A stretch of 64,000 bases of DNA, from contig CAJXSL010000001.1 of the NCBI GenBank assembly GCA_913060875.1, positions 826,464 to 890,463 of the forward strand, written 5' to 3'. Source of the DNA: an uncultured Desulfobacteraceae bacterium. Its GTDB lineage: Bacteria > Desulfobacterota > Desulfobacteria > Desulfobacterales > UBA5852. Within the stretch, counting starts at the first letter, position 1. Every line of letters starts with the position of its first letter. The notes beneath the pieces were generated by a model. It saw only the letters and a list, made by a program, of their open reading frames with translations, made no database searches and had not been told where the DNA came from. Of the stretch, positions 1-16,251 are shown one piece after another. The position numbers and the translations under genes were made by a program.

Positions 1-210
1 CAGGACATCCGGATCCTCGCCCAGGTCCTCGGCCAGAGCCCGTATCTTGTCCTCGGTGAGGTAGGCTTTCAGATCGCCCCGCTCGATCTTGCTGAGATAG
101 GACGGCTCGACCCCCATCCGCATGGCGACCTGTCTCACGGAATAGCTGCGGTCCTGGGCTTTGAGCCGCTCGCGCTTGTCACGAATATATTGACCGAATG
201 TGTTTTTCAT
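1..210 (-). CDS. XRE-family helix-turn-helix regulator, 3' part cut by window edge
   Basis: This is the first 70 codons of a small DNA-binding regulator; the rest lies outside the window. The translation starts MKNTFGQYIRDKRERLK and carries the XRE/Cro HTH core (SVRQVAMRMG, then PSYLSKIERG), so it very probably binds DNA as a dimer. The ATG at 210 has no Shine-Dalgarno sequence. A consensus -10 box ends only 7 bases before it, so the mRNA is probably leaderless. A near-palindrome covers the same promoter, which suggests autorepression. It lies on the same strand as, and 73 bases downstream of, the CARF/sigma-54 gene that ends the conflict operon, so it may be a second regulator of that island. 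The family call is firm. The target genes are inferred. Confidence 0.85.
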   Translation of the reverse strand, partial: MKNTFGQYIRDKRERLKAQDRSYSVRQVAMRMGVEPSYLSKIERGDLKAYLTEDKIRALAEDLGEDPDVL

Positions 211-212
211 AC

Positions 213-232
213 TGTGTAGTATATAGTACACA
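213..232. promoter_or_regulatory. Putative XRE operator, near-palindrome over the -10 box
   Basis: The 20-base site has arms TGTGTA and TACACA around a TATATA centre, with one mismatched pair at 219/226. It covers the -10 hexamer and lies 3 bases before the start codon. That placement suits autorepression by the XRE protein. The binding itself is inferred. Confidence 0.6.
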
Positions 233-246
233 AAATAAGCTGTCAA
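218..246 (-). promoter_or_regulatory. Sigma-70 promoter of the XRE gene
   Basis: Read on the minus strand, TTGACA (246-241) is followed by exactly 17 bases and TATACT (223-218). This is a near-perfect sigma-70 promoter. The predicted transcription start falls at about 210-212, on or next to the A of the ATG at 210, which implies a leaderless transcript. Confidence 0.8.
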
Positions 247-282: not shown

Positions 283-1923
283 TTATTGATATTTTGTTTT
301 CTCGGATAACTGAACCCATTCACGAAGGGTTTTTACTGTCACATCCACGAGAGATCCAGCTGACACGCCTCTCATTCTGGCAACACGTCGTACTTCTGAT
401 CCGATCCAAGACTGAAACACTTGTTGAACGGCTTTGGTCGTAAGTGGTTTGGCTGAGTCAAGCAAGTCGTCCAATGGGGAGTTGTTTACAAAACGAAAGG
501 CTACTTCCCTTGCCATATCGCTATTGATGGGTTTGGTTACGGAATCAAACGATGTCGGTAACCATTTTTTCAATTCAGATTCGTCGGGCGGAGTTGAGGT
601 GTGCCAATGGGCTAAAATGCGCCATCCAATAGCATACAGATTGCGCAAATTACCAGGCAAAGGGTGATTTCGAAGGAATTGCACCACTGTCTCGTGTCCG
701 ACTTCGGGCAGAGCAAAGTCGACACCGGCTTCGTTACATACTGATTCAAAAACGTCACGCCACAACCATGACAAATCCTCGGGTATCTCTCGGAGGGAAG
801 GGGCACGCATTCGAATGAGGGCGATGCGGTCAAAGAAATCCTGGTCTAAACGGTCCCGGAGGTTCTCCAGGGGGATATTGGTAGCGGTGATCAAACGGAA
901 CTGACTTTGTTTCCATCGGGTCTCACCGAGGGGCTGATAGCGTCCCTCTTCAATAGCCTTGATGAGCAGGCGTTGCATTTCTCGCGAAATATCCCCCACC
1001 TCATCAAGGAACAGAGTGTCGCCGTTGGCATTTGCCAGGAGCCCTTGTTTGGTTTCGGAAGCCCCTGTGAAAGCTCCCTTTACATAGCCGAAAAGCTCGG
1101 CACGCATTGTTGCCGGCTGGTACTGGCCACAGGCGATGGCAGGCCAGCCCTCGTCGAGATCCGCTTTGCGAAAGGGGCTGTTGAAACGGATCCAGTTGGC
1201 AAGGGTCGTTTTGCCGGTTCCTCTTTCCCCGAGAATCATTACAGGGACTCGGAGGCTCGCTACCTTTTCTGCCTCCGAATAGAATCGCTTTAGCACGTCA
1301 CTTCGGAATTGAGCCGGATCCCAGGAAATTTTTTCTGAACTGACAGATGTCTCCTTGGGGCGGGTTTTTCGGTATTTTTTGTAAAATGTTTCGATTCCGA
1401 TTTGGATTTGCTTTACCGCCGAGCGGTCCATGCGGTCTCCGGGGCGAATGGATTTCAGGAGTTGGAACGGTTCCCGAATAAAACCGGTTTCACCCATCAA
1501 TACCCAGATCGTTTGCATGGACGGGGTACCCGGGCTCGTGTGGATGAGGAGTTCTCTGTTTGGAAACCGGTTTCGGATATGCGGTATTTCTTTGCGCAGA
1601 AAATCGAATATCGATGTATGGTCAGTGGGGTCGGAACCATTCCAGACTATTTTTTCGCAAGTGATGGTGGGGTCCTGCTCCAGGATTTCACTAAAGGTGG
1701 CATTCACTCGCTCAAGGGAGGCGCTTTCGTTACGACAGAGCATCACCACATGATCTACCTTTCCTTTATATCGGGAATCCGCATCGAAAAGAAACGCAAG
1801 GGTGGGGCCGGGAATGGGACGTCCCGCAGAGTCGATTCGGTACTTTCCCGTTTTTCGATTTCGTTCATAGGGGTCATTGTTGAATGCGACCCAGCTTACA
1901 AGCACACCGCTGCGATTTTTCAT
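283..1923 (-). CDS. RtcR-like CARF-domain / sigma-54 AAA+ transcriptional activator
   Basis: This 546-aa protein has an N-terminal CARF-type sensor of about 170 residues and a bacterial enhancer-binding AAA+ domain. The CARF signature LLIHTSPGTPSMQ, near residue 125, matches the LIHITTGTH segment of E. coli RtcR. The AAA+ domain has Walker A GERGTGKTT near residue 233, GYVKGAFTGA (the sigma-54-contacting loop) near 281, and Walker B TLFLDEVGD. The C-terminus may hold an HTH. The ATG at 1923 is chosen because it overlaps the upstream stop as ATGA and has GGAGAG before it. RtcR is known to respond to RNA ends or tRNA fragments through its CARF domain. A similar cue here is inferred. It is the last gene of the operon headed by a -24/-12 promoter, so positive autoregulation is likely. 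Confidence 0.85.
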   Translation of the reverse strand: MKNRSGVLVSWVAFNNDPYERNRKTGKYRIDSAGRPIPGPTLAFLFDADSRYKGKVDHVVMLCRNESASLERVNATFSEILEQDPTITCEKIVWNGSDPTDHTSIFDFLRKEIPHIRNRFPNRELLIHTSPGTPSMQTIWVLMGETGFIREPFQLLKSIRPGDRMDRSAVKQIQIGIETFYKKYRKTRPKETSVSSEKISWDPAQFRSDVLKRFYSEAEKVASLRVPVMILGERGTGKTTLANWIRFNSPFRKADLDEGWPAIACGQYQPATMRAELFGYVKGAFTGASETKQGLLANANGDTLFLDEVGDISREMQRLLIKAIEEGRYQPLGETRWKQSQFRLITATNIPLENLRDRLDQDFFDRIALIRMRAPSLREIPEDLSWLWRDVFESVCNEAGVDFALPEVGHETVVQFLRNHPLPGNLRNLYAIGWRILAHWHTSTPPDESELKKWLPTSFDSVTKPINSDMAREVAFRFVNNSPLDDLLDSAKPLTTKAVQQVFQSWIGSEVRRVARMRGVSAGSLVDVTVKTLREWVQLSEKTKYQ

Positions 1924-4016
1924 GAAGTCAGCTCTCCATTTGTTTCCTGATTGCCGCAATGAGGACAGAGGAAACGGTTTTTACCCAGCGGAAGAGCCAG
2001 AATGTCGCAACCGTAACGCCGGTCTGCGTCGAGAAGGCCTTCAGAAGGGTCATTACCCGGAAAGTCCAGAAACGGGTAAGCATTACCGCAGATACCACAT
2101 CGTCGAAGCCCCCAGCGCGAATTACATCCACTGCAGTGGCAGTAAAACAGGCCGTCTTCCGCCTGAAAGTTCCAGGTTGATACGGACGAATCGCATATGG
2201 GACAATTTAGCAAACAGGCAGCATGCTCCAGGCTGGATTTGATGTTTTTAGACAACTGGATATCCATATCGATACCCTCGCGTTCAAGGGCCAACTCATG
2301 CTTGAGGTGTTTGCGATCCGTCCCTTTGGCTGTCAAGATTTTCTGTCGCAGCCCGCCAGCCTTCTGTTGCATTGTTGAAATTCGTTCTTGAAGTGCGGGC
2401 CAGTGTATGGCCTCATCGCCCCCAGGCTCAATAATTGCGGCCTGCTGTTTCCAAATTCCAAGCCACTCCGGCACATCGCCTGGGTTTACCCATCCAGGCT
2501 GAAGTGGGATACAAAAGGGATAGGCGTTGTAAAGGGCGGACCAGACGTGCCAGCGGATGGCGCAGGCAACTCGTTCTACGCTTTCAAGGTCCCACGGAGC
2601 TGCCGCGGCAAACATGGGGCCCGACCTTTCGCCGCGATTTCCGAGACTGCGAAGGCGCAGGCGATCTTTGATTGGGATTCGGCGGTTTTCATCCGCAGGT
2701 AGGCCGACGATCAGGAGATTGGTATCTTGGGGAACTTGTTTCAGCCACCGCCCAATGATCCCGCTTCCTTCGAGAATTGCTGGGAGAGGAATAATTCGCA
2801 TTGCTTCGGGATTAAAAATTGTTTTGATGAAAATATGGTGCTGGTCACGTGATAGGGTCAACCGGCCGGCGGGGCCGTCAAGATGGCATAAGCCTGTTTC
2901 TGCCAGGGTGGATTCTACACTTTCCGGAGCGGGTCGATACCCGAGGGCGCCCAGCGACCGGATTACGACCAGAAAAACAAACGATTGGAAGGACTGGGCA
3001 AGTTCCTGATCATTGAACCATTTGGTTTCCGGATCGGGTTCGATTGTTTTGACGTGCTCTTCCCAAGCGGTCCAGAGTTTTGCCACATGCCGATATACGC
3101 TGTCATGGGTGAGGACATTTGTCATCCTGAGCCGAATTTTGGCAGTTTTTCTGTGACCGATTCGTCGATAAAGTGGGCTGCCTTTCAATGCAAGCACGCG
3201 TCGGCGGAGCGAGACCAGTCTATTCAATAAATCTTTCGCCCCGCTGAGGCTGCCAGATTCCTCCTGGGCATCACCCCAGAGTTGCAGCACACGTTGGGCG
3301 CGTCGGTAATTAGCACTGTTTTCGAGCACCTCCTGGTAGTCTTGGCGACATCGAAACAGCTCGACCACACGCCGTACGGCTTTGATTCGACGCAACAAGA
3401 ACAGGTCGAGGTGGTCCACAAGCGTTACGGCCACCTGGTTTTCATAGATGCCGTAGAATTCGTCATTGATCAGGCTCAAGACCCGCTTTGGCCGGACCCC
3501 CCATAGGGTGCGGCGTTCCCAGTCTTCGGACCGTGCCGCCAGAATCGCGGATGCACGGGGGGAGGGCCTTTTGCACCTGGAAACGATGAGTCGTTCTTCC
3601 TCGGTTTTGAGGTGCGTGCGGGGCCGCTGGCAGGCAGCCTCCAGATAATCGATGCCGGACCTGATGTCTTGCTCCAATTGTGTTTCGACCAGTGCTTCGT
3701 CGATGGTGAGTGATAAGGGGGAGGTATGGATCCAGCTTTCCCAAAGAAATCCCTCGATGGTTCGAATTCCTCGTCCCATTTGACGAATAGTGTGCGCGGC
3801 GTCCTCGTCAAGCAGAAGGCGCGTGTCTGCGCGCAACATGCCTAATTTGGGAGAACTGAAACGACCATCGGAATCCGGTATTAGCAAGTTCCCCCGATTG
3901 ATGTGAGTGCCGCGAAGGGGGATGCTGATATCACTGTCGTAACGCCATTGGCCGGGAATAATGGGCATTCCAGGCCGATCACGGTGCTCGCCTGTGAGGG
4001 TATCGATCCAATCCAT
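1920..4016 (-). CDS. DUF2357 / McrC-like protein with C-terminal zinc ribbons
   Basis: This 698-aa protein is probably the nuclease-side partner of the McrB-like ATPase encoded just upstream. Residues of about 70-260 resemble DUF2357, with RPKRVLSLINDEFYGIYENQ matching the conserved segment before the helical part. The middle, around QSFQSFVFLVVIRSLGALGY, is placed like the start of the PD-(D/E)XK domain of McrC/DUF524 proteins, but I could not assign catalytic residues with certainty. The last 130 residues contain several Cys pairs (CPICDSS, CHCSGC, CGICGN, CPHCGN), which are zinc ribbons likely to bind nucleic acid or a partner. The start has GGAG before it and lies 11 bases after the ATPase stop. 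The nuclease role is inferred from family and pairing. Confidence 0.65.
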   Translation of the reverse strand: MDWIDTLTGEHRDRPGMPIIPGQWRYDSDISIPLRGTHINRGNLLIPDSDGRFSSPKLGMLRADTRLLLDEDAAHTIRQMGRGIRTIEGFLWESWIHTSPLSLTIDEALVETQLEQDIRSGIDYLEAACQRPRTHLKTEEERLIVSRCKRPSPRASAILAARSEDWERRTLWGVRPKRVLSLINDEFYGIYENQVAVTLVDHLDLFLLRRIKAVRRVVELFRCRQDYQEVLENSANYRRAQRVLQLWGDAQEESGSLSGAKDLLNRLVSLRRRVLALKGSPLYRRIGHRKTAKIRLRMTNVLTHDSVYRHVAKLWTAWEEHVKTIEPDPETKWFNDQELAQSFQSFVFLVVIRSLGALGYRPAPESVESTLAETGLCHLDGPAGRLTLSRDQHHIFIKTIFNPEAMRIIPLPAILEGSGIIGRWLKQVPQDTNLLIVGLPADENRRIPIKDRLRLRSLGNRGERSGPMFAAAAPWDLESVERVACAIRWHVWSALYNAYPFCIPLQPGWVNPGDVPEWLGIWKQQAAIIEPGGDEAIHWPALQERISTMQQKAGGLRQKILTAKGTDRKHLKHELALEREGIDMDIQLSKNIKSSLEHAACLLNCPICDSSVSTWNFQAEDGLFYCHCSGCNSRWGLRRCGICGNAYPFLDFPGNDPSEGLLDADRRYGCDILALPLGKNRFLCPHCGNQETNGELTS

Positions 4017-4027
4017 AAAACAGTCTC

Positions 4028-6427
4028 CTACAGGTGGCGCTGCTGTTCTTCAATAAAGTTTAAAGCAGCGTCAGCACCGCGATTTGTATCAGGCCAGCTC
4101 TCCTCCAGAGTTTCTTTCAGGGTATCGAGATCTTCTTCAAGGATATCGTGTCGGCCGTCTATTTTACGGATGATGCGGGATGTGACCATTTGGTCCAAAG
4201 CTTCTCCGAGGCTTCCGCCGCTGGAAAGAACGACGGGGACGAATTGTTTGATCTGTTTTTCAAGTCGACCACCCCAACCGATCCCGAACCTATCGCCCAT
4301 GGTATCCCTGAGGTAATCCTCCATCCAGTGAAGGGCGTTTTCAGCCGCATCGGCGTGTTCCTCAAAGGATTTTTCGAAGGCATCCAACAAGGCCTTATAC
4401 GCAACAGGTTCGCGTGGAGGCCGATCCTCAAGGTCAAAGGCAACTGGACGGCCAGGCAGTTCGAGAACAAATGAACGATCATAGGTCTTGTCGGCAAAAT
4501 CCTTTGTGGTTTCATCGTGGTTCGCTGTGCCGACGAACCAGACATTGTCAGGTAGGGGGAGAAAACGGCCTGCCGGTAGCCCCGAAGGCGCCTGGCCGTT
4601 TGGGCAGAAGGGCATCAGTTCGAATCGTCGATCTGCAAGCTTGTCGCGTTCCAATACGTCGAGCAGGTCAGCAGCGTACTGCTCGGGATGGGATAGGTTC
4701 ATCTCGTCCAGCAGGATTATGGCGAAACGGTCGCGCCATTGGGGAAGTTGGGCTTTATAAAGGGCCTGAACGAAGGAAGATTCGTGGTAGCGCTTTTCGA
4801 AGGCGTTGTGATAGCCGAATAGATCGTTGCGGTCTCGCCACCCGGCCTGAACGGAAACCGTTTCACAGAATCCGCCTACAGCGGCGGCGAAAGCGCGCGG
4901 AAGGCTGCTCTTGCCGATGCCACTGATTCCCTGTAGAAGGTGCATCCGGCTCATGGCCAAACCGCCAAGAAAGGCGCGGATATCTTCTTGCCGGTAATAA
5001 AGTTCGGGTCGCTCGCCCTTAGGATCCAGGCCGATTCGATGCCGGAGATCCTCTACAAAATCCGCGAGATCCAGTTTCGAGCCGTCCTGGGGTCGATAAA
5101 GATGTGATTGCTGCGTGTTGAGAGCCTGGTCCTCGTCCATTTTAACGAACTGGGGGAATACCGTTCGATCGCGATGTTTGTCGAGACGTTCCTCGAGATC
5201 ATGTTGGAGATCGTCGAGGGCGGTTTTCAAAAGGTTTTGGTTTTGTTCGAGGGCTCGGTTCCGTTCCTGCAGGATTTCCTGGGAATCGACTTCGATATGG
5301 AGTCGCTCCAACCGGGATTTCAGCCGACCGTTTTCATTGAGCAGTTTTGACCGATCCCTTTCCCATTCAGATTTGTCGCTTCTCAGTTGCAGCAATTCCT
5401 CGGTTTCCGCCGGTGTGGGTCTTTCGGCAAGCTCCGCCTCGAGCCTCTTGATTTGGCTGCGTAGCCCGTTGATTTCCCGCTCTACTTCCTTAGGACTCTT
5501 GTGCTCCATGAGGCGGGCGGCAGCTTCCTGTTCAGCAAGCGATGCTTCAAGGTTAGAAAGGCGTTCCCGCAGGGCCTTCTTGTCCCGGTTTGAAGCTGCC
5601 AGGTCTTCTTCCATATCTGCGACCTGTTTGGCAACACGGTCGCGAATGTGCGTTTCGACTTCCTTTTTGAGCTCTTCCGCGTCCTCCATGGCCCAAGCGG
5701 CTTCACGCTCGCGCTTTTCCAGGGTCAGCTGCTTTTCCCGAAGTTGGTTTTCGCAATCCATGATTTGTGTTTCCCGCCGCGCAAACTCATCCTCAAGCTG
5801 CTTGCGGCGATCAGCAAGGTTTTGACGAAATTGCTCCAACTGGTTATCGAGCTGTTCCAAGTGGGCCTGTTCGCGCTCTGCGGATTTTTCCAGCAATTTA
5901 TGGTTGCGGTCCAGCAGCTTCTGGTGGACGTCCTTTAGTTTTTTCAGCATATTTTCACGGCGCTCAACAAAGCCTGAATCTGCATCGGTTTCCCGTGCCG
6001 TGATCGATTCTTCACGATCAGTCAGTTCCTTCCGACGCGTTTCGAGTGTATCGCGATCTTTAGCAAACTGCTCCAATTCAAGATCGAGATGAGTTTTGGA
6101 CTCCTCCAATTCGCTCCGGAGTGCCTTCAGTGCTGTTTCCTCAGCATCAAGACATTCCTTTTCCTGCGTATAGGCGGTTATCAGCACCTGAAGGCGACGC
6201 CGGAGATGTTTCTCATCCTCCCCCGGCGTTTCTATCGCATCAGGGTTTGGCAAGTTGATACCGGCGCTTGATGCGTCAGACTCGAGGCGGTCGATAGGGA
6301 TTTCGTGGGGAGTTGTTCGATTCAAGGTTCTTCCTGAGGAAGTCACTGTTTTGCCTGCCGAAGGGGAGGCTGCTGCCGATAGGTTGTTGCCATTTTTCTT
6401 GCCGTGTTTTTTCTTTTTTTTTGCCAT
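4028..6427 (-). CDS. Coiled-coil McrB-like AAA+ NTPase (CnuB-like)
   Basis: This 799-aa protein has a Lys-rich start (MAKKKKKHGKKNG), a very long charged coiled coil at about residues 75-430, and a C-terminal AAA+ domain of the McrB/MoxR type. Walker A is GISGIGKSS near residue 500. Walker B is FAIILLDEMNLSH near 570. A sensor segment VGTANHDET near 630 resembles the McrB motif. Type IV restriction McrB proteins are motors that form rings and drive a McrC-type nuclease; the DUF2357 gene downstream supplies that partner. Fusion of McrB to long coiled coils is the defining feature of the systems described as CoCoNuTs. Whether it uses GTP or ATP cannot be told by eye. The ATG at 6427 has an AAGGA ribosome site. 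Confidence 0.8.
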   Translation of the reverse strand: MAKKKKKHGKKNGNNLSAAASPSAGKTVTSSGRTLNRTTPHEIPIDRLESDASSAGINLPNPDAIETPGEDEKHLRRRLQVLITAYTQEKECLDAEETALKALRSELEESKTHLDLELEQFAKDRDTLETRRKELTDREESITARETDADSGFVERRENMLKKLKDVHQKLLDRNHKLLEKSAEREQAHLEQLDNQLEQFRQNLADRRKQLEDEFARRETQIMDCENQLREKQLTLEKREREAAWAMEDAEELKKEVETHIRDRVAKQVADMEEDLAASNRDKKALRERLSNLEASLAEQEAAARLMEHKSPKEVEREINGLRSQIKRLEAELAERPTPAETEELLQLRSDKSEWERDRSKLLNENGRLKSRLERLHIEVDSQEILQERNRALEQNQNLLKTALDDLQHDLEERLDKHRDRTVFPQFVKMDEDQALNTQQSHLYRPQDGSKLDLADFVEDLRHRIGLDPKGERPELYYRQEDIRAFLGGLAMSRMHLLQGISGIGKSSLPRAFAAAVGGFCETVSVQAGWRDRNDLFGYHNAFEKRYHESSFVQALYKAQLPQWRDRFAIILLDEMNLSHPEQYAADLLDVLERDKLADRRFELMPFCPNGQAPSGLPAGRFLPLPDNVWFVGTANHDETTKDFADKTYDRSFVLELPGRPVAFDLEDRPPREPVAYKALLDAFEKSFEEHADAAENALHWMEDYLRDTMGDRFGIGWGGRLEKQIKQFVPVVLSSGGSLGEALDQMVTSRIIRKIDGRHDILEEDLDTLKETLEESWPDTNRGADAALNFIEEQQRHL

Positions 6428-6484
6428 GATCGTCCTTACTGATGAGTCTTGGAGAACGGTTTATTTAAAATTAATGAGCTCAGG

Positions 6485-8023
6485 TTATTCAGATGGAACG
6501 GCGTCCAACAGTTCCCGGCAAAGGCGAGTAGCCGTTTCGACATCCTTTTGGAGATCTGCCAGGGTGTGCTGGCTATCGCCTCCATGGATCTCATCTCCTG
6601 CGGCATTTGCGATAGCGTCAAGGTCGCGAATCCAAGCCGGTGAGAATTTCGCCAGGCGTTGCAGCGGATGATGCTCGTCGTCCGCTGCGGCTAAAAGAAA
6701 AGTGGCGCATAAGGGGCGTAAATTGGAAAGGCTTGGGCGTAAACAGGCGGCTTTCACCGTACCAGGTTTGGCATTTACGATGGCTTCCGGAATCGGGGGA
6801 TGGAATCCGGCAGCTTCTGCACAGGCTCCAATGACGCGTCGGGTCGTGTCTTTGGGAAGCCATTTGTTTCCGGCATAAAGCTTTTTCCAGGCGTTTCCCG
6901 GTGCATGCTGAGCACGCAAAATCCGCATAGCCTGTTCAAGGGCTTGACGTACCTTCAGATAGACCCCGTCAAGTTGGAAGCGGATGTCGCGGCCGTCAGC
7001 GTATTCCTGTTCCAGGCGTATGCGATCCATAACCGCCAGCTCCAGGCGATCGCGCACGGTATTCTCTCCGGCGAGTGTGCTGCGGGGCATGCAACGACTA
7101 AGCTCCTCCCTGGCTTGGTCCCTTAGAAGCTCCTGCATCCTAAGCCATTCCTGCCGGTGGCCTTCCATGGCTTCGCCGGTGATCCTGTCCAAAAGGTCCC
7201 GAAAACCACCTCCTGCCGAGGATCGAATTTTTTCCAACTGCGAACGAAGGGTCGTGGACGCGCCGAAGCCGAAGGGGTCTGCGACATACCAAGGCTCTTC
7301 CGTCATCTCCATCTCATCAGGAACATAAACGAAGGTAAGAAGATGGTAATCCTCGGGCTGTTCATGAATGAAGGAAATTTGGTGCACAACCGACGAAGAC
7401 AACGCTTCGAGTTCTTGCTCGGCCTGACGGATACGACGGACGTGCTTTCTATGCCGTCTTACAGCCGCCAAAATTTCTGCAGGTTTCGGCATAACGGGTG
7501 GTGCACTTCCTCTACGGACTATGGTTGCCCGTTTCGGCTTGGGATTGCCTTTTGTTCCCAGCTGAACCCAGGGCCGTCCCTCATCGTCAGCTTCCACCTC
7601 GGCGTTCATGAGGTTTATTACAAAGCGAGGCAGGAGTTCTCCAGTCCAGGTGTCCTGAAAAACCCAGCCGACTCGCATTTCTTCTGGTGAGAATTCCGCG
7701 TCAGTTAGGAGTTGGTGACCGCGTTCCGTGACTTGGCCGTCCTTTTCGAGCATCCCCATCTCAGTGAGTTCCTGGCCGACAATCCCTATAAGATCAGGAT
7801 CGATACCAAGAAGCTCCCCGGCCTGCTGATGCTGACGAATGCCGGCGATATGGAAACGCAGGACCGCGCGCTGAAGTATATTGAACTGCCGGTCGTAGGG
7901 TGCGGGGGTGACCACCTGCCATGCCCGCACCGGCCAGAGAAGGAAGTTTCTTTGCTTCCAACGCAGCCCCCTGCGATGAAGCGAGGGGTGGAAGTCCAAT
8001 ACGCGATCAGGTATAAAGTCCAT
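6485..8023 (-). CDS. Conflict-operon protein of unknown function, possible N-terminal winged helix
   Basis: I do not recognise this 512-aa protein. Residues of about 40-110 look like a winged-helix domain (FNILQRAVLRFHIAG, then LTEMGMLEKDGQVTERG). The middle has a conserved-looking stretch, YHLLTFVYVPDEM then WYVADPFGFG, typical of a folded beta-rich domain, and the C-terminal half is mainly helical. There are no transmembrane segments or signal peptide. The ATG at 8023 is preferred over the upstream GTG because GGAGG lies 6 bases before it. The gene overlaps the helicase stop by 17 bases, so the two are translationally coupled. Its place between the helicase and the McrB-like ATPase suggests a structural or target-recognition subunit. 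That role is inference. Confidence 0.75.
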   Translation of the reverse strand: MDFIPDRVLDFHPSLHRRGLRWKQRNFLLWPVRAWQVVTPAPYDRQFNILQRAVLRFHIAGIRQHQQAGELLGIDPDLIGIVGQELTEMGMLEKDGQVTERGHQLLTDAEFSPEEMRVGWVFQDTWTGELLPRFVINLMNAEVEADDEGRPWVQLGTKGNPKPKRATIVRRGSAPPVMPKPAEILAAVRRHRKHVRRIRQAEQELEALSSSVVHQISFIHEQPEDYHLLTFVYVPDEMEMTEEPWYVADPFGFGASTTLRSQLEKIRSSAGGGFRDLLDRITGEAMEGHRQEWLRMQELLRDQAREELSRCMPRSTLAGENTVRDRLELAVMDRIRLEQEYADGRDIRFQLDGVYLKVRQALEQAMRILRAQHAPGNAWKKLYAGNKWLPKDTTRRVIGACAEAAGFHPPIPEAIVNAKPGTVKAACLRPSLSNLRPLCATFLLAAADDEHHPLQRLAKFSPAWIRDLDAIANAAGDEIHGGDSQHTLADLQKDVETATRLCRELLDAVPSE

Positions 8024-11000
8024 CGTTTCCTCCACACAGTTCTATGAATCTATACAGGCCGGGGACCTCTTCCCTTCCTGACGCTGAGGTAAACATGGCT
8101 CTGTCGCCAACCGCCACAAGGAGCCGCTTCTGGCGGCTCATGGCGACACAAAGGCGGTTGGGTAGCCTAAGGTGGCCGAATTTTCGTATGATATCCAGTT
8201 CTGTATCCGTTTTGAAATCGTTTGCGCGCGTCACTGAGAGGAACACCACATCGAACTCCTTGCCCTGGAAAGCATCCACGGTACCGACCCGGAGACGTTC
8301 CTCTCTTCCGCCGTCCTCCCGAACGAGCGTGCGAAAACGTGGTAGAATGTCGAGAGCTTCTGTGTCCGGGTTTATACCGGCGATTCCTTTATCCTCAAGG
8401 GCCTTGAGCAGGCAGTCCACCTGGGCGCGATAAAAGGTGATGACGCCGATGCTCAGACCGGTGTCGAGACCATTTAGGAGGCGGTGGACCTCTCCGGCAA
8501 TCCAACGTGCCTCGGCAGGGCGCGACTTGCTTCGCCCGGAGTGTTCCCTGCCCTTGTTGAGGGGAATATCCTTCCAAGCGGCGCACACAGGATGGTTCCC
8601 GCGGAGATAGCCGGGGAGTTGGTGCCGAAATTCCTCAGCAGGACGGGGTGATTTAAAACCGCCTTCGTCTCGATAGAAGACATCACTGACGAACTGGCCA
8701 AGGGTGGGATGCATCCGGAACTGGCTGTCGAGGGTAATTACGCGGGGAATGCCGTCCCTATTTTCCTGTCCCTGCAGCTCATCAAAGAGCTTCTGAAAAA
8801 GACTCTCGCGCATGGCCTTTCGTGAAGCGGCATCTGCGCTTTGTGAGAGAACCCGCTCCACGTCAGGCTCAAGAAGGTGCGGTAACTGGCGCTGGTCACC
8901 CACGAGGATGATGCGGCGACCGGCCAGGGACATGGGGATGAAAAGATCCAAGGGGTTGGCACGGGCGGCCTCGTCGACAATTATGTTGTCAAATTCCGTG
9001 CTGCCGATCTCACCTCCTTTGGCATCAATCATGTGATATCCTACTGACTGCTGGCAGGTGGACGCATAGACTGCGGCATACTGTTTGAGCATCCGTGCCG
9101 TACCGACAGGGTCATTGGAGAGGGCTTCGGCGTACTCGGCAAGTACGTCGGGCACGCTGCCGAAACTGCCTTGAAGGCGTGTATGGAGGGCCTCGACGGC
9201 AGCGTTCAGGGCCGAGAGCGTGTCCGGATCGGTTCGGCGTCTTTCACCGGGGACCTCTGCTGGAATCAAGCGGTCGAGCAGAACCGCTTTCATACGCTCG
9301 AGATCCTCAAGGCGATCGAAGGATCCACCTGGAGAGACATCGGCGGCAGCCTCGAGCAGGTTGCGGTCCTCATCTGAGAGAAGAGGGGTGAGTCGACGAA
9401 GTGCCTGATGCGCTTTGCGCGGACCGTCATCGGCGAATGCTGTCTGGGTTGTACGGAGGCCTTTGGCGCACTTGAGCATCAGTTCGTGGTCCAAGCTGTC
9501 GCCATTGTGTGGAACGGCCCCTGCTGGCCGTCGAAGTGCTCTGAGGCGTTCCCATAGGGGGGTCGGAAGTGTCCCGACCGGCAAATCGACAAGGTCATTC
9601 ACAAGCGCGCGTGCCTCTTCCTCAGAGTATATGCCGGCGGCGTATCCGGCGACTCTATCCCGGTACTTGCGATATTCGCGCAGCGGCCGTTCTTCCGGCA
9701 TCTCCGAAAGCTTGGCTTGAATGTACTCGCGGGTGTCAAGGGCCCAGCGTTGGAGACGGTCTTCGGTAGTTGTTGTGCCCCGGCGCCCTCCGAAGCGCAT
9801 GGGAGGGAGGCCGTAAACGCGGGTTTTGTCCGCCGCGTTGTCTACGGCGTCATGTTGAAAGCTGGTGAGCAGCGTTCGCCCCCCGACACCTGGGTTGTCG
9901 GAAGCAAGATCAGCGAGTCCCGCCTGGATGGCCGTGATCACCTTTGTCTTGCCGGTTCCAGGTGGACCCTGGATTACTGCAATATCAGGGGTGTTCAGGG
10001 CGATATGGATCGCTTGACGCTGAGCGGGTGTGGGTTCGTGATCGAAAATTGACCGAATTTTGGGGGTAAAGGCGGGAACCTTGGCTCTGCGCTGAGCCGG
10101 CGCCGGACGGCCCTCTATGATAAGCCCCAACTGAGGAAGCCGGGCGTCCGCGGACTGGATACGTTTGACGGCGTTTTCACGACGGGACAAGCGTGACCTG
10201 TCCCCGTGCAAAGCGCTAAACAGCACCCCCCTTTTAGGAGGGAGGATATCGCTGTCATCGTCCAACGGACGGAGGAGGAGTTCCCGGTTTTCAAAGTGTA
10301 TATCCTCAAGGGTTCCAACCGCTGTACGAAACCGTATCGGGTTTTCGGACGCTTCTGACGGAGCGCTTTCCCCTATCAATTCTGGGGGTGGATTTCTCTC
10401 CGCCTCCAGTGTCAAGTTTTCCCAGTCTCCGAGTTTAGAGCGGAATTCTTGGAGCGCCTTGAGATGGGGTACGGTAAAACGCCACAGGCCGTTAGGGCGA
10501 ATCTCGAATGTTTGGTAGGTAAGCCATCCCAGTTCCCTGGCGCGGCGGACGATGCTGTCACGCTCAAGATCCTGGTATTTCATCCAGAGGGCTAAATAGC
10601 TGTTGGTTTCTTTTACGATTTGTGTGATCTGGGCACTGATGGTGCGACGCATCTTGCCGGCAACTGTGGCATCCTCGAACTTCATGTCCGCTTCCATGAG
10701 AAACTCGGGCGGGTGGAATCCTTGCGCTTTGCCGTTAAGCCTGCCCACTCCCTCAACCCTTAGAGTGTCTTCTCGGGGCACAATATCGACCCTAACGCGA
10801 TTACCGAGCAGACGGAATCGACTGTCGGTGCCAGGCGAACCTGTAGCGATGGCCCGTGGAAAAGTGTCTTTTGTTGATGGGGGCAGGAAAACCTTTTCAG
10901 ACAACCATCGGCAGGCTTCTGTTGTGTCCATTTTTCGGTTTGCAAGCTTGCATACGCGTTCGACGGCCAATTCGTCGACCCCAAACGAAACGGTTTCCGG

Positions 11001-11306
11001 CCAAAAGGGGCCGACGCGGAACTCGTGAATGTTAATGGCCACAACGCTGCCATTGATGGCGGCAATCCAGCAAAGTCGTGGCGGGTCGGTCCGCCGGAGG
11101 AATGAGAGCCTCCGACGTGCTTGGTCGCCTTCAGGGTATATGGCGAGACCCTTGTCCTGACCGACGAACAACAGCGTCTCATCCGTGGTCTCGGGAAAAA
11201 CGAGGCGAACTTCCTTTTCCACATCGGCGGATTTGAGCAGCATGTTTGACTCAATGGTGATTTTGATTGTCGTCGGATTACCATGCTGGAGACGGGAAAT
11301 CTTCAT
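8007..11306 (-). CDS. UPF1/DNA2-like superfamily 1 helicase
   Basis: This 1099-aa protein has all main SF1 helicase motifs in its C-terminal two thirds: QGPPGTGKTKV (Walker A, about residue 447), IIVDEAARANP (motif II, about 775), VGDQRQLPHLL (motif III), DSQFRMHP (motif IV), VGTVDAFQGKE (motif V) and VAMSRQKRL (motif VI, about 1055). The order and wording fit the UPF1/DNA2/NAM7 group, which unwinds RNA or DNA 5' to 3'. The first 400 residues are unassigned. I see no added nuclease domain. The ATG at 11306 overlaps the kinase stop as ATGA and has AAAGGAG 7 bases before it, so the longer frame to 11381 is rejected. An SF1 helicase of this type is a known CoCoNuT component (CnuH). Confidence 0.88.
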   Translation of the reverse strand: MKISRLQHGNPTTIKITIESNMLLKSADVEKEVRLVFPETTDETLLFVGQDKGLAIYPEGDQARRRLSFLRRTDPPRLCWIAAINGSVVAINIHEFRVGPFWPETVSFGVDELAVERVCKLANRKMDTTEACRWLSEKVFLPPSTKDTFPRAIATGSPGTDSRFRLLGNRVRVDIVPREDTLRVEGVGRLNGKAQGFHPPEFLMEADMKFEDATVAGKMRRTISAQITQIVKETNSYLALWMKYQDLERDSIVRRARELGWLTYQTFEIRPNGLWRFTVPHLKALQEFRSKLGDWENLTLEAERNPPPELIGESAPSEASENPIRFRTAVGTLEDIHFENRELLLRPLDDDSDILPPKRGVLFSALHGDRSRLSRRENAVKRIQSADARLPQLGLIIEGRPAPAQRRAKVPAFTPKIRSIFDHEPTPAQRQAIHIALNTPDIAVIQGPPGTGKTKVITAIQAGLADLASDNPGVGGRTLLTSFQHDAVDNAADKTRVYGLPPMRFGGRRGTTTTEDRLQRWALDTREYIQAKLSEMPEERPLREYRKYRDRVAGYAAGIYSEEEARALVNDLVDLPVGTLPTPLWERLRALRRPAGAVPHNGDSLDHELMLKCAKGLRTTQTAFADDGPRKAHQALRRLTPLLSDEDRNLLEAAADVSPGGSFDRLEDLERMKAVLLDRLIPAEVPGERRRTDPDTLSALNAAVEALHTRLQGSFGSVPDVLAEYAEALSNDPVGTARMLKQYAAVYASTCQQSVGYHMIDAKGGEIGSTEFDNIIVDEAARANPLDLFIPMSLAGRRIILVGDQRQLPHLLEPDVERVLSQSADAASRKAMRESLFQKLFDELQGQENRDGIPRVITLDSQFRMHPTLGQFVSDVFYRDEGGFKSPRPAEEFRHQLPGYLRGNHPVCAAWKDIPLNKGREHSGRSKSRPAEARWIAGEVHRLLNGLDTGLSIGVITFYRAQVDCLLKALEDKGIAGINPDTEALDILPRFRTLVREDGGREERLRVGTVDAFQGKEFDVVFLSVTRANDFKTDTELDIIRKFGHLRLPNRLCVAMSRQKRLLVAVGDRAMFTSASGREEVPGLYRFIELCGGNDGLYT

Positions 11307-12697
11307 GATGCCGCTCCTTTGTAAAGCGTGAAGGTGGCCACGCGGTGGATGTCCAAGGGGGTTTCGGGTACGAGCCACCACCAGGATTTGCCTTTTTGAA
11401 GGGCGACGCGTTCTGTACGTCCGTCGAGCGGAACAGATTTGCCATCCCGGCGGTGGGCCAGACGCGTTGCAGAGGCTTCAGTCCCCTTGAGGACAAGAGT
11501 GTGGCCTTTCAGGCAGGCACTGATCCTGATCGTATCCGAGCAAGTTCCCTTCAGATGTCGATCAGCGAGCTTGGTCCAACGATCGTGCTGGACCATTGTT
11601 CGTGCTACCGCGGAAGGCTTGCCGGGCTGGTTGCAGACGACCTGGTAAGGGGTTCTGGAGTCGTCAGTCAGTGAAGTGTCCCGATGGTAAAAGGTGATGA
11701 TTGCAAATGAGGGGCGCGGTTCGTCGCACCAGGGGCACTTGGCACAGGTAAAGTAATAGCTGCTGTTGCATGCTGGGCAGACCAGGGTTTGATCTGCGGC
11801 CTGGTGAAGACTATCGGCCCATGCGCCGGCCGAGGGGCGGTTTTGCCTTTCCAGACGGCTATCTGCGAAGCATCTCCCAGCATAGCTTTGAAGCGGTGGG
11901 GTTAAAACCATCTCCATTGGAAGGCCGTGTATTGGTGCGTTGCTGTTGTCGTTTGTGTCGCCGATCCAGGGCAGTTCCCCGCGAAAGGCCTTTTCCTCGT
12001 TTTCCGGTTCGCTGTTGTGAACCAACTCCCCGATAAATGGATGGGTTACGCAAAGGGTTTCGAAAACGATGGTGGCAAGAGACCATGCGTCGGTTAGGGA
12101 GTCGGCACCCGGGTGACCGCGGAACAGTTCGGGCGCGGCATAGCCTGGCGTGTAGACGGCCCGGGGGCTGACCCCTTGGTAAACGTTGTCGCAATCGATG
12201 AGCCAAACCTCATTGGATTCCTGGGTTTCGGACATAAAGATGTTCCCCGGGGAGGCATCCCCGTATGTGAGGCCGGCGGCGTGGAGGTCCCGGAAAAGTT
12301 CCGCTGTACGGGCAAGGAGTCTAAGGCGACGTTTCAGGCTGCCCGTTTTCAAGTACCAGGAGGAGAAGTCTCCCTCCAGATCCCTAGGGACGTTCACCAG
12401 TGTTTTCAATGGAACCATCCCGGTCATCAGCTCCATCACATATCCCACAAAGGGTTCGGCCAGAGCTCGCAGGGGGCGGGCCACCTTGAGTCGCTGAAGA
12501 GGCAGTCGGCGAAGGCGCGCGATATTTTCACGGACTCGTTCGCGGGCGGAAGGTTGGCGGACTCCCAAAAGTTTTACAGCCAGATCCTTGCCGCGGACGG
12601 CGTAGACGGCGCCTTGACCGCCTTGGCCCAGGAGGCGGTCGAGGGGGTAGTGAACACCGTCGACATCCACGACTGCATCAGGGGAGTTGATAGTCAT
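11303..12697 (-). CDS. TerY-P-type Ser/Thr kinase with C-terminal zinc ribbon
   Basis: This 464-aa protein is a eukaryotic-like kinase. The Gly loop is GQGGQGAVYAV (about residues 24-34), followed by the lysine motif LAVKLL. The catalytic loop is YGDASPGNIF near residue 146 and the metal-binding motif is LIDCDN near 167, the divergent form of HRD/DFG typical of kinases in TerY-P triads. A zinc ribbon (CPAC, then CAKCPWC) follows at about 305-322, also typical of those kinases. It overlaps the PP2C gene as ATGA and has an AAGGAGG site. It probably phosphorylates components of the complex, with the PP2C protein reversing this. The substrate is not known. Confidence 0.88.
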   Translation of the reverse strand: MTINSPDAVVDVDGVHYPLDRLLGQGGQGAVYAVRGKDLAVKLLGVRQPSARERVRENIARLRRLPLQRLKVARPLRALAEPFVGYVMELMTGMVPLKTLVNVPRDLEGDFSSWYLKTGSLKRRLRLLARTAELFRDLHAAGLTYGDASPGNIFMSETQESNEVWLIDCDNVYQGVSPRAVYTPGYAAPELFRGHPGADSLTDAWSLATIVFETLCVTHPFIGELVHNSEPENEEKAFRGELPWIGDTNDNSNAPIHGLPMEMVLTPPLQSYAGRCFADSRLERQNRPSAGAWADSLHQAADQTLVCPACNSSYYFTCAKCPWCDEPRPSFAIITFYHRDTSLTDDSRTPYQVVCNQPGKPSAVARTMVQHDRWTKLADRHLKGTCSDTIRISACLKGHTLVLKGTEASATRLAHRRDGKSVPLDGRTERVALQKGKSWWWLVPETPLDIHRVATFTLYKGAAS

Positions 12698-13404
12698 TTA
12701 TTCCTCCTTGAGAACTGCAAAACAGCGATGGTTTTATCGTCTATATGCCGCGGGGTTGGCCAGCGGCGCAGTGCGGTGGCCAGTGCCCGCCACCGACGCT
12801 GCGGGGCTTGCAGCCCGATATCCTTTTCCAGCCAGTTGACGAAGTCCTCAAATCGCTCCGGCAAGAGGTCGTCGGCTACACCGTCGGTGCTCAGCACGAC
12901 TGCTCGAATGTCTGTGTTTAAGGGGGCTGTGGACCAGGCGGTGATATTTCTGGAGACCCCCAACCCTTCGGTCTGGTTGCTAAAATGGTTTGGGTCGCGA
13001 TTTTGGAGCGAACGAACGCCTGTGTCGTTGCGGATGAGGACAAGACCATCGCCAAGCTGCCCCACAATCCCCATGCCGTTTTGATCTGCAGCGGCAAACA
13101 AGCAGGTGCAAGCGCATTCCGCGGGGGGTAGGGGGGCGACCCGAGCCCGCCAGAATAGATGGATCATCGAGACAAGAATCTCTGGCGGCGCCGCAGGATT
13201 GCGCCGCCACTGCCTCAGGGCGTCGACAGTGGCCCGGCAGGCAGCCATTGCCCCTTCGCGGGCAAAGGGACGGGAGCCCATCCCATCGCTCACCACGACC
13301 ACCCTCATGTTACCGACGTGGGCGTGAAGCCAGGCGTCCTGGTTGGGTAGGCCCTCAGCCTTGTGGGCGGGGCCCTGTACCGAGGTTCCGAAAACGTTCA
13401 TCAT
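12694..13404 (-). CDS. PP2C-family protein phosphatase
   Basis: This 236-aa, metal-dependent Ser/Thr phosphatase of the PPM/PP2C fold carries the metal-binding motifs VVVSDGMGSRP, VGQLGDGLVLI and VLSTDGVADDL in the right order, and its length suits a single domain. There is no membrane segment. It sits between the vWA and kinase genes, as in TerY-P triads, and its stop codon overlaps the kinase start, so the kinase and its likely antagonist are made together. Two ATG codons in a row occur at the 5' end, and either could start the protein (13404 or 13401). Confidence 0.88.
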   Translation of the reverse strand: MMNVFGTSVQGPAHKAEGLPNQDAWLHAHVGNMRVVVVSDGMGSRPFAREGAMAACRATVDALRQWRRNPAAPPEILVSMIHLFWRARVAPLPPAECACTCLFAAADQNGMGIVGQLGDGLVLIRNDTGVRSLQNRDPNHFSNQTEGLGVSRNITAWSTAPLNTDIRAVVLSTDGVADDLLPERFEDFVNWLEKDIGLQAPQRRWRALATALRRWPTPRHIDDKTIAVLQFSRRNK

Positions 13405-13412
13405 CGCCTCGG

Positions 13413-14087
13413 TTACAGCAGTTCCATTCCATCAAGGTCGGACAGTAAGAAATCGTTCGCCATCGTAGCATTAGGATTCATGCTGCGGGAACGTGAGCAC
13501 ATGCTCATCGTTACTGCTTTGAAGAACATCTTGATCTGACGAGCGTCAGAGGCGCCGTAGACACGGCCTTCGGGATTGTCCAGAAATCGTCTAAGCACAT
13601 CAGCATCGGCATCTTCTCCGATACCCAAAGCAAATCGCTGGGCTTTGAGGGCACGTTCGGATTTTAATAACCGATCGAGGGCTGGTTCCCACATGTCGTT
13701 GGGTTGACCGTCGGAAACCAGGACGATAGCGGGAGTATAAGCGCGTCCGGATATTTTATCATGGTCCTCAATAAGTTCCCTTACCAGATCGAAGGCGCCG
13801 CCCATGGGGGTCATGCCGTTGGCAGAAAGCGGCTGAAAATCCAGTTTCGAAGCTGAAATTGGATCTTGGTGAATCTGGGCCGCGCTGCCGAATGTGATGA
13901 TACCTACGTGGATTTCGGCCTTGCCCTCGTCCTCTTCGGCAAAAGTGTCAATCATGTCAGCCAGTGCAGTGTTCAGGGCTTCGATTTTTCCGTCAACGCT
14001 CATGCTGCCGCTGGTATCGGCGAGAATGAGAACCGGGAGGGGACGAGCCATTGCGGCAGTGAAAGATTTCAATGTGCGAGTGGTCAT
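13413..14087 (-). CDS. TerY-like von Willebrand factor A protein
   Basis: This 224-aa vWA protein has an intact MIDAS: DTSGSMS near residue 24, a central Thr-Pro segment (NGMTPMGGAF), and VLVSDGQPND. TerY-type vWA proteins are thought to act as metal-dependent adaptors in kinase/phosphatase triads. The ATG at 14087 is preferred. An in-frame TTG at 14117 directly after the DUF4258 stop would add ten residues with no family support. It is followed after 8 bases by the PP2C gene. The exact partner bound by the MIDAS is unknown. Confidence 0.88.
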   Translation of the reverse strand: MTTRTLKSFTAAMARPLPVLILADTSGSMSVDGKIEALNTALADMIDTFAEEDEGKAEIHVGIITFGSAAQIHQDPISASKLDFQPLSANGMTPMGGAFDLVRELIEDHDKISGRAYTPAIVLVSDGQPNDMWEPALDRLLKSERALKAQRFALGIGEDADADVLRRFLDNPEGRVYGASDARQIKMFFKAVTMSMCSRSRSMNPNATMANDFLLSDLDGMELL

Positions 14088-14118
14088 TGGCCTTTTCCCT
14101 TTAATCGAATAGTTCAAG

Positions 14119-14436
14119 TTATACCCGCCGGGACCGGCGGGAGCATTTTTCGCGAATGTTGAGGTTCTGATTGCGATAGACCGTCATCACGACGCCTTCT
14201 GGACTGCAGATCACATGGACGCCTTCATAGTCCCGGAGGTCAACGCCGCGTTTTTCGGCTTGGCGGACCTCTTTTTTCCCGATGACGTGTACCTTGGCTT
14301 TTCTTACTCGGCACTTCCGACCGTATGCCATTACTGCCTGAATGTCGGGTATGGCGATCCCTCTTTGGGCCATCCGGCGTAGGGAGTGGTTAGTAAGAGA
14401 GGGCAGTTTATACTGTTTGGGCAAAGAGCTTATCAT
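14119..14436 (-). CDS. DUF4258 family small basic protein, first gene of the conflict operon
   Basis: This 105-aa basic protein has the DUF4258 layout: an N-terminal LTNHSLRRMAQRGI helix, a core KVHVIGKKEVR, and a final GVHVICSPEGVVMTVYRN strand pair. DUF4258 proteins are small and partly resemble BrnT/RelE-type toxins, but activity here is unproven. The ATG at 14436 is chosen over the longer frame to 14568 because AAGGAGG lies 5 bases upstream and because the predicted sigma-54 transcription start (about 14457) lies inside the longer frame. It leads the operon, so it is the first product made on induction. Confidence 0.75.
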   Translation of the reverse strand: MISSLPKQYKLPSLTNHSLRRMAQRGIAIPDIQAVMAYGRKCRVRKAKVHVIGKKEVRQAEKRGVDLRDYEGVHVICSPEGVVMTVYRNQNLNIREKCSRRSRRV

Positions 14437-14468
14437 GGCTACCTCCTTGTGTTTGCCCAACAGTATTT

Positions 14469-14483
14469 GCATCTGGTATGCCA
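14469..14483 (-). promoter_or_regulatory. Sigma-54 (-24/-12) promoter of the conflict operon
   Basis: On the minus strand TGGCAT, ACCAG, ATGCA is read. The GG at -24 (14482-14481) and the GC at -12 (14470-14469) have exactly the consensus spacing. The predicted start is near 14457, about 20 bases before the DUF4258 ATG with its strong ribosome site. The sequence above it is AT-rich, which would suit IHF bending. The activator is probably the RtcR-like protein encoded at the end of the operon. Confidence 0.72.
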
Positions 14484-14880
14484 AAAGGGGTGGTTGGATT
14501 TTAAGTGCTTGAATTATAATTAAATTATTGATTTGCGATGTTTTATGGTTTGATGGTGGTGAAAACATTTATTTTCTGTATGCGAACAAAAAAGTTCTGA
14601 TCAAAATTTAATTTTAGCTGTTTCCCAAAAAAATATTCAATTGGTCTAAAGTCCATGCGCACAGATTTTTATTGGCCTGCGCTCCTATGGAGAGTAGCCG
14701 ACATTTGAAAAGCTCATATTTAGGTACCGAAAAGGTAGATATGAGCATTAGCTCTATTCTACCGTTTTTTGGTAGAAACTCAACTTTTGAATACAGCGTA
14801 CGTGAAAAAGACTTGGCCATCGAGGAAATGCGGAAAAGGTTGAATCGCTGCCGGGCGCAGGAAGAGGTGGGCATGTTCGG
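14484..14880. other. AT-rich intergenic region upstream of the conflict operon
   Basis: The region holds no gene I can support. Bases 14500-14640 are very AT-rich and would contain any enhancer sites of the sigma-54 promoter, but I see no clear inverted repeat. Short frames on either strand (for example 14672-14884) match nothing I recognise. Confidence 0.5.
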
Positions 14881-14909
14881 TTGACAATCAATATCTTTAA
14901 TTGAATAAA
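14881..14909 (+). promoter_or_regulatory. Possible sigma-70 promoter upstream of the nucleotidyltransferase remnant
   Basis: TTGACA at 14881-14886 is followed after 17 bases by AATAAA, a weak -10 match. It could drive the pseudogene and the intact gene at 15105. It is a single candidate with a poor -10 box. Confidence 0.35.
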
Positions 14910-14962
14910 TAGATACAAAAAATTGTTTGAATACATACAATAAATTGTACATATAGGTTCTT

Positions 14963-15112
14963 GTGGATTACAGACTAAATAAAAACAGGCTGCTTGATAT
15001 TCTTGGTGATTATAACTGATTCCTCAAGCGCAAGGTTCACCTGATCGCTTGCGGCGGTACGGCCATCAATTATTACATGGGTTTATTGAAAGAAAGGGGT
15101 CTCTATGGCTGA
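14963..15112 (+). pseudogene. Degraded nucleotidyltransferase (DUF6036-like) N-terminal remnant
   Basis: From a GTG at 14963 the frame reads DYRLNKNRLLDILGDYN, then a TGA at 15017-15019, then FLKRKVHLIACGGTAINYYM and a stop at 15110. The segment HLIACGGTA is the hallmark N-terminal motif of DUF6036/AbiEii-like nucleotidyltransferases, which normally continue for over 100 more residues with the metal-binding Asp residues. Here only the first 45 or so codons remain, with an internal stop, so it cannot be active. It runs straight into the gene at 15105, which is likely the old partner of the lost enzyme. Confidence 0.7.
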
Positions 15113-15776
15113 CCACAAGCTTTTGAGCAGTTTGTCGAAGCTCGGTTTCCCGATGTTCGAGCCCGCCGAACAACTGGATGTCAACGAGACCCTGGCCGAG
15201 GTCGTCAAAAGCGACGATACACGCCTATGGGAGGGCTTTCCGGTGCTGTTGGCCAACGCCGCGGATACCTATCAGTTTGCACCGGACCTGGTCGAGCAGC
15301 ACTTGGATAACCAATGGCAGAAACATCATTTCCGCCGCCTGATGCTCTTTTCCGGGGCCTTGTTCTCGCTTTATCACTTGTCATTCACTTGGTGGAACAC
15401 GCTTAAAAAAAGCTTTTCCGAACAGGAGAAGGATTTGGTTCGGACCTGGAAAATGGATTTGGTCCGAGACCATGCTGTCCAATGGGATGATGCCGTACTC
15501 GATTCAGAACGCGTCAAAGGGCTTTTCGAGCTCTATTTCGAGAAAAAGGCGGAAACGGACAAGCGACGCAAGGAAAAACATGCGGAATTCTCTCTGGAGT
15601 ACGCCTTGTCCCAGGTGTTTTCGCCCAAGCAGAAGGAGTTGTTCAGGAAGAAGCTGGGAGGTCTCCCCCTGACCAAGACCGAGAAAGAATATTATTCACG
15701 GACGGTCAAAAAGAAGGTGGTAGCCCTCGCTAATGACGGGCTGCACAGCCTGGCGAAAAAACTCTTGGAGCTTTGA
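15105..15776 (+). CDS. Hypothetical protein, probable partner of a lost nucleotidyltransferase
   Basis: This 223-aa soluble, charged, mostly helical protein has no signal peptide or membrane segment. I do not recognise a named domain. Distinct segments are DTRLWEGFPVLLANA near the N-terminus, a central LFSGALFSLYHLSF, and a C-terminal basic part (LTKTEKEYYSRTVKKKVVALAN) resembling the tail of some small regulators. AAAGGGG precedes the ATG. It follows directly on the nucleotidyltransferase remnant. In intact loci a two-gene arrangement of this kind would suit a toxin-antitoxin-like pair, but that is inference. The frame is open and its codon use matches nearby coding sequence, so it is probably still expressed. 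Confidence 0.7.
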   Translation: MADHKLLSSLSKLGFPMFEPAEQLDVNETLAEVVKSDDTRLWEGFPVLLANAADTYQFAPDLVEQHLDNQWQKHHFRRLMLFSGALFSLYHLSFTWWNTLKKSFSEQEKDLVRTWKMDLVRDHAVQWDDAVLDSERVKGLFELYFEKKAETDKRRKEKHAEFSLEYALSQVFSPKQKELFRKKLGGLPLTKTEKEYYSRTVKKKVVALANDGLHSLAKKLLEL

Positions 15777-15799
15777 TTGGTTTGCCCCCTGGCTTCCTT

Positions 15800-16110: not shown

Positions 16111-16251
16111 CCGTTAAAGCTTTTTTTGCGAGCTGAGCGGCTTTGCGTAAGGAATGCCGGCCTTGTCCCATAAATATGGAGAAAATATAAATTTAGGGGG
16201 CAATCGTTTAAATCCTCGAAAGTATCCTGTCGGCAACCGCACTACAGCGGT

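Follow-up and report, generated by a model that had tools for sequence, protein, structure and literature searches.

Type II CoCoNuTs, as defined by Bell et al. (2024; PMC11090510), encode an McrB-like GTPase with an NxD signature and a coiled coil (CnuB), a DUF2357-type McrC homolog with an inactivated nuclease (CnuC), a UPF1-like helicase with an SmpB-like oligonucleotide-binding (OB) fold (CnuH) and a protein that joins a winged helix to a HEPN domain (CnuE), usually together with a TerY-P triad. RtcR homologs and upstream BrnT-like toxins of the RelE family are frequent companions of these genes, and a role for the RtcR homologs as the CoCoNuT switch was proposed, but only proposed, in the same work (PMC11090510). 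Here we describe such an operon in a 64,000-nucleotide stretch of DNA (the window) from an uncultured Desulfobacteraceae bacterium (GenBank assembly GCA_913060875.1, contig CAJXSL010000001.1, positions 826,464 to 890,463). Nine close-set open reading frames (ORFs), all on the minus strand and running from 14436 to 283, make up a complete Type II CoCoNuT: VWA, PP2C, a kinase with a zinc ribbon, CnuH, CnuE, CnuB and CnuC, with a DUF4258 gene at the head and an RtcR-type activator at the tail. Two things are unusual here, namely the 3′ position of RtcR and a HEPN motif that has lost its arginine.

Gene content and family membership

We place the operon in this known kind because it has the core features of Type II, except for an incomplete HEPN motif and a RelE-like domain of CnuH that drew no structural match, because its gene order is nearly universal among relatives and because all nine families recur together on a Polaromonas plasmid. 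A CnuH search gave 80 relatives, to which we applied iterated profiles of all nine proteins; the order VWA-PP2C-kinase-CnuH-CnuE-CnuB-CnuC is found in nearly all of those with a flank long enough, on plasmids too. On pPNAP01 of Polaromonas naphthalenivorans (NC_008757, L094), a sigma-54 regulator, DUF4258, VWA, PP2C, kinase, helicase, CnuE, AAA ATPase and CnuC are co-directional, as here, but the regulator comes first and the HEPN motif is intact (RNKGSH). With the Type II CoCoNuT of Bell et al. (PMC11090510, Fig. 8), the window has in common the core genes and their order, the TerY-P triad, the NxD GTPase, the inactive McrC nuclease, the RtcR homolog and the upstream BrnT-like gene; it differs in that RtcR is 3′ rather than 5′, the HEPN arginine is gone and CnuC retains extra CxxC pairs. 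The Type III-A CoCoNuT of a Klebsiella plasmid (L093) shares CnuH and TerY-P homologs with the window but has a CnuCD with Hsp70, two HEPN domains and the CARF nuclease Can2; with no Hsp70/HEAT and no second HEPN, we ruled out a Type III-A assignment. Mokosh and MADS were also rejected, as the PADLOC matches to them were only to generic helicase and kinase.

A first-pass annotation of this DNA had read nine tightly packed genes on one strand as a CoCoNuT with a TerY-P triad, and both the layout and the assignment stand. Gaps between genes are mostly shorter than 12 nt or give way to overlaps, the largest (57 nt) separating cnuE from cnuB. The annotation had further suggested that DUF4258 at the head and a CARF/sigma-54 gene at the tail mark an undescribed variant. 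Both accessories had in fact been described for Type II (PMC11090510), although the 3′ position of RtcR is out of the ordinary; the operon presumably serves defence.

The domains read at first pass were recovered by Pfam and PADLOC (DUF4258, VWA, PP2C_2, Pkinase, AAA_11/AAA_12, AAA_5, CARF/Sigma54_activat) and by a check of their motifs. The lead gene (14119–14436) encodes a 105-residue DUF4258 protein, BrnT/RelE-like and of the BECR-fold superfamily (PF14076, E = 3.5e-6), whose start we refined to the ATG at 14436, with a strong Shine-Dalgarno sequence of the AAGGAGGT type ahead of it (14441–14448, minus strand). Next comes a TerY-like VWA protein (13413–14117; PF00092, E = 7e-12) with the metal ion-dependent adhesion site (MIDAS) motif DTSGS; its ORF opens at TTG 14117, and ATG 14087 is the likelier start. 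A PP2C phosphatase (12694–13404; PF13672, PP2C_2, E = 1e-38) and a Ser/Thr kinase with a C-terminal zinc ribbon (11303–12697; PF00069, E = 6e-13; CPAC/CAKC) complete the features that define a TerY-P triad. The MIDAS residues, the PP2C catalytic Asp/Gly and the zinc-ribbon cysteines C307, C310, C321 and C324 are all invariant in relatives.

CnuH (8007–11381) joins an SmpB/HIRAN-like OB region to a UPF1-like superfamily 1 helicase (AAA_11/AAA_12; GPPGTGKT and DEA). Its ORF opens at GTG 11381, but ATG 11306, which overlaps the kinase stop, is likelier. The AlphaFold2 (AF2) model of residues 1–429 has a predicted local distance difference test score (pLDDT) of 88, and Foldseek matches it to UPF1, HIRAN and SmpB, each weakly. 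The gene that follows (6485–8035), an 'unknown 512-aa protein' at first pass, is real and is no longer unknown: it is a 516-residue CnuE, an elongated winged helix with a C-terminal HEPN-like domain according to AF2, Foldseek and Pfam matches of family members.

CnuB (4028–6427; AAA_5, E = 4e-7; GISGIGKS and NHD) shows both CoCoNuT hallmarks, an NxD GTPase and a long fused coiled coil. Its signature TANHDET is NxD, not NxxD (N636-H-D638), with N636 and D638 conserved in 100% of relatives, and two charged helical stretches poor in proline and glycine (70–312 and 368–425) form, judged from composition, a putative coiled coil of about 350 residues. CnuC (1920–4016, 698 aa), next to CnuB in the gene order, is a McrC/DUF2357 homolog with an inactivated PD-(D/E)xK region and four CxxC pairs. 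Pfam detected no DUF2357 in the window protein; the earlier reading of a McrC/DUF2357 partner is upheld through orthologs from Deinococcus and Pseudanabaena (L091, L092), which pass the DUF2357 cut-off (PF09823), and through plasmid orthologs annotated as DUF2357.

Probable sigma-54 control and the regulator at the 3′ end

The last gene (283–1923) encodes an RtcR-type activator that combines CARF with a sigma-54 AAA+ domain (GAFTGA at 295). The PADLOC profile RtcR_PspF1--CARF_AAA_HTH matches residues 17–550 (E = 4e-137) and includes the helix-turn-helix (HTH). The same CARF-AAA+ activator architecture controls the RtcR-RtcBA RNA repair operon; unlike that regulator, the window protein probably governs defence-type genes, and its NCBIfam RtcR match (2e-53) falls under the curated cut-off. 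Pfam found no canonical RtcR in this genome, which encodes one RpoN and one RtcB.

In nearly all relatives with a linked RtcR, the gene lies 5′ of the operon (divergent in L016–L018). The window and Endozoicomonas ascidiicola (L076) are the only cases in which it comes last and co-directional; in L015 it lies downstream and convergent. The Endozoicomonas locus is like the window in that it opens with DUF4258, behind a sigma-54 site, and closes with RtcR on the same strand; it is unlike the window in its intact HEPN motif (RNAVAH) and its distant CnuH clade. That only one relative shares the arrangement, and that Pfam sees no separate terminal HTH in the activator, might suggest a chance insertion that does not control the operon, whose promoter would then be constitutive. 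We consider this very unlikely: the RtcR start (ATG 1923) overlaps the cnuC stop as ATGA, a sigma-54 site stands at the operon head, and on the RtcR tree the window clusters with L006, L007, L010, L075 and others of its CnuH neighbourhood, near the RtcRs of sister loci, so that rearrangement within the system fits better than a foreign insert. Since RtcR is the last gene of its own operon, it would be expected to act on that operon by positive feedback.

The site at the head is a −24/−12 sigma-54-like promoter, TGGCATACCAGATGCA, at 14483–14468 on the minus strand, 47 nt 5′ of the first start codon; we found no strong internal promoter in the operon. We turned to the relatives because matches to the simple sigma-54 consensus are no more frequent in the window than expected by chance (26 found at two mismatches, 33 expected); what supports the site is where it lies and that it recurs in relatives. 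We scored the 300 bases 5′ of the first gene with an approximate weight matrix based on the established consensus, taking Markov-shuffled sequences as controls. At p < 0.05, 27 of 32 loci with a linked RtcR, including the window (p = 0.01), had a site on the sense strand, as did 17 of the 37 remaining loci, whose RtcR may lie outside the flank. Scores of at least 11 were reached on the sense strand in 24/32 RtcR-linked loci versus 1/32 on the antisense strand. Three of the five misses (L040, L075 and L078, with the order DUF4258-RtcR-VWA) have their site ahead of DUF4258, which brings the count to 30/32 with two exceptions; independent cases are fewer than these counts because L075 and L078 are identical and other loci are close kin. 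Actinobacterial relatives with a sigma-54 site numbered zero. In Pseudomonas, Marinobacter and their kin (L036, L039, L041, L046, L047, L057 and L060), a sigma-54 site lies 5′ of VWA with no RtcR within 10 kb, and the activator may sit further out.

Imperfect dyads occur 60–100 nt upstream of the sigma-54 sites more often than local shuffling predicts (14 versus about 2.4), in the zone where the activator would bind, and are putative activator-binding sites. As a candidate in the window, we rejected a dyad with only 7-nt arms and a 17-nt gap (14538–14544/14562–14568), which may be chance. Taken with the position and recurrence of the promoter, these tests support the sigma-54 control that the first-pass annotation had claimed.

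Loss of the HEPN arginine and the RNase step

The AF2 model of CnuE is confident (pLDDT 90). Foldseek finds a clear MarR-type winged HTH in it and a weak HEPN match (2hsb); in the CnuE family, Pfam recognizes the winged HTH in 47/68 members and HEPN in 3/68, and a sequence search of the Protein Data Bank with the CnuE profile gave no HEPN match. The RxxxxH motif is conserved in most Type II CoCoNuTs and is not a strict requirement of the type (PMC11090510). In the window it is incomplete, with A479 where the arginine is expected and H484 kept. The arginine is likewise absent from 15 relatives: the CnuE alignment has the arginine in 61/61 loci outside this R-less set and in 0/16 inside it, the window included. 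The CnuH tree gathers the R-less loci, along with three arginine-keeping cyanobacteria, into a single clade of 19 rows (support 99), and the CnuB tree requires two changes, so the arginine was lost once or a few times. An automatic count on the CnuH tree had scored L003–L005 as arginine-bearing; theirs lies six positions before the histidine and is not the motif, because L002 has lysine there. The arginine is missing, too, from a locus on a Deinococcus plasmid (CGEAAH).

HEPN RNases generally require both the arginine and the histidine, and the RNase step of an R-less CnuE is therefore probably weak or performed elsewhere. The McrC fold offers no substitute. Its nuclease motif is missing in all Type II CoCoNuTs (PMC11090510), and in the CnuC clade alignment the catalytic motif is gone while the zinc ribbon, with its CxxC pairs, is kept, with no Pfam match to Hsp70 in the window protein. 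An active nuclease in the longer CnuC of the R-less branch was ruled out, as there is no conserved D...ExK motif. The first-pass annotation had pictured the kinase and phosphatase as a safety switch on a 'motor and nuclease', a picture that these observations correct as regards the nuclease; the loss in HEPN had escaped it. Nor did we see obvious compensating catalytic residues in CnuH, CnuC, CnuB or the TerY-P proteins of the R-less branch.

The best candidate for the RNase step in this branch is probably DUF4258, a member of the BECR-fold RelE/ParE superfamily (PMC11980606), in which H17, R21, R25, T85 and R88 are invariant across 29 relatives. Among loci with sufficient upstream sequence, it heads the operon in 11 of 12 R-less versus 15 of 52 arginine-containing loci (Fisher p = 9e-5, uncorrected for kinship), a p value that is inflated because the association rests on one or few evolutionary events. 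In the R-less Verrucomicrobial locus L009, a GmrSD_N-type gene (5300–7111) lies directly 5′ of VWA, at the spot that DUF4258 holds in others. Our tentative proposal is that the R-less branch lost both built-in nucleases, the PD-(D/E)xK of McrC and the RxxxxH of HEPN, and that the killing step may have passed to the RelE-like DUF4258 that is encoded first in the operon, with a self-amplifying RtcR/sigma-54 switch in control.

It is also possible, if doubtful, that HEPN without its arginine keeps RNase activity through His and Glu, with CnuE remaining the effector, as in other Type II CoCoNuTs, and DUF4258 a mere accessory or regulator. The full conservation of H484 and E367, inside the R-less set as outside it, argues for a retained function, but an arginine that is invariant in 61 other relatives has here given way to A, G, V or C with no consistent substitute. 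Less likely still is a HEPN-like domain that only binds RNA or serves as structure, the RNase being a RelE-like (RTL) domain in CnuH that is activated by the helicase at ribosomes. Bell et al. assign such a domain to Type II CnuH (PMC11090510), and the N-terminal half of our protein is confidently modelled as SmpB/HIRAN-like and UPF1-like; no RelE fold appears among the top 50 Foldseek matches of that model, however, and the R-less branch gains no catalytic-type residue there except R190 and R245.

Genomic setting and proposed mechanism

Homologs of the operon are rare: of 395 genomes in the phylum, 2 others carry them (probably L010 and L075), and none of the 95 nearest relatives has it at full length. 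Some relatives carry it on plasmids. Downstream, a defence island encodes AbiEi/AbiEii, a C5 methyltransferase with Vsr and SspF-, SspG- and SspH/HerA-like genes in one direction (L087; G000:C1:806600-826500, 1784–17243). The patchy distribution, the island and the plasmid carriage all speak against a stress-response or RNA-quality-control operon that deals with damaged translation machinery and is not mainly anti-phage, even though RtcR, the SmpB-like OB and the UPF1-like helicase are parts of RNA repair or surveillance and the genome also has RtcB; we regard that reading as unlikely.

We favor, as likely, an anti-phage Type II CoCoNuT run by its own RtcR-type activator. At a low level, RtcR would sense through CARF an RNA-damage signal made during infection, by analogy tRNA fragments with 2′,3′-cyclic phosphates, and would drive sigma-54 RNA polymerase at the −24/−12 site 5′ of DUF4258; being last and translationally coupled, it could raise its own level upon activation and give a switch-like response. 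The operon products would then act on RNA and ribosomes or translation-associated RNA. CnuB and CnuC may assemble into a coiled-coil scaffold that is driven by GTP and whose nuclease fold is inactive. CnuH, with its SmpB-like OB and UPF1-like helicase, may bind and unwind target RNA, CnuE may bridge to it, and the VWA/PP2C/kinase triad may tune activity through phosphorylation. The RNase step would be weak in the R-less CnuE or lie elsewhere, with DUF4258 as the probable RNase, and the response would end in dormancy or abortive infection.

Several points weigh against this model. The window promoter deviates from the consensus at two positions, and no dyad in the window itself passes the test applied to the relatives. 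Even for the model system there is disagreement over the ligand of RtcR: 5′ tRNA halves with a cyclic phosphate bind Salmonella RtcR (PMC7790460), and work in E. coli disputes that a tRNA-fragment ligand suffices and finds RtcAB to be needed (PMC9650030). The link between DUF4258 and arginine loss amounts to one or few evolutionary events, and L009 is R-less with no DUF4258. A HEPN survey lists further families that keep the histidine and lack the arginine, without proof that they are inactive (PMC3710099). Finally, Bell et al. contains no experiment showing defence by a Type II CoCoNuT (PMC11090510).

Around the operon, an XRE-type HTH gene (1–246, minus strand) runs off the window start and has a sigma-70 promoter matching 11 of 12 positions (TTGACA-17-TATACT, 246–218). 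Upstream, a divergent gene (15105–15776, plus strand) encodes a 223-residue protein that neither Pfam nor PADLOC recognizes. Beyond it, beside genes for acyl-CoA metabolism and independent of the CoCoNuT, lies a GAF/sigma-54 activator (16252–17799, minus strand). At 57330–57345 on the minus strand there is a perfect sigma-54 consensus, TGGCACGGTGATTGCT, where the sole listed minus-strand ORF of more than 120 residues just downstream is 56918–56532. Searching the window against Rfam and for tRNAs gave no match, nor did a search of a phage collection with PP2C.

Beyond what Bell et al. (2024) described, this locus and its relatives add recurrent sigma-54 sites, loss of the HEPN arginine with DUF4258 at the operon head, and RtcR as the last gene. 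The recurrent −24/−12 sites with dyads 60–100 nt upstream provide a concrete, testable regulatory model in which the sensing of RNA damage would lead to RNA-targeting immunity. The loss of the arginine, in turn, probes the central claim that these systems have HEPN as their effector, for if R-less loci still defend their hosts, another component may act in its place.

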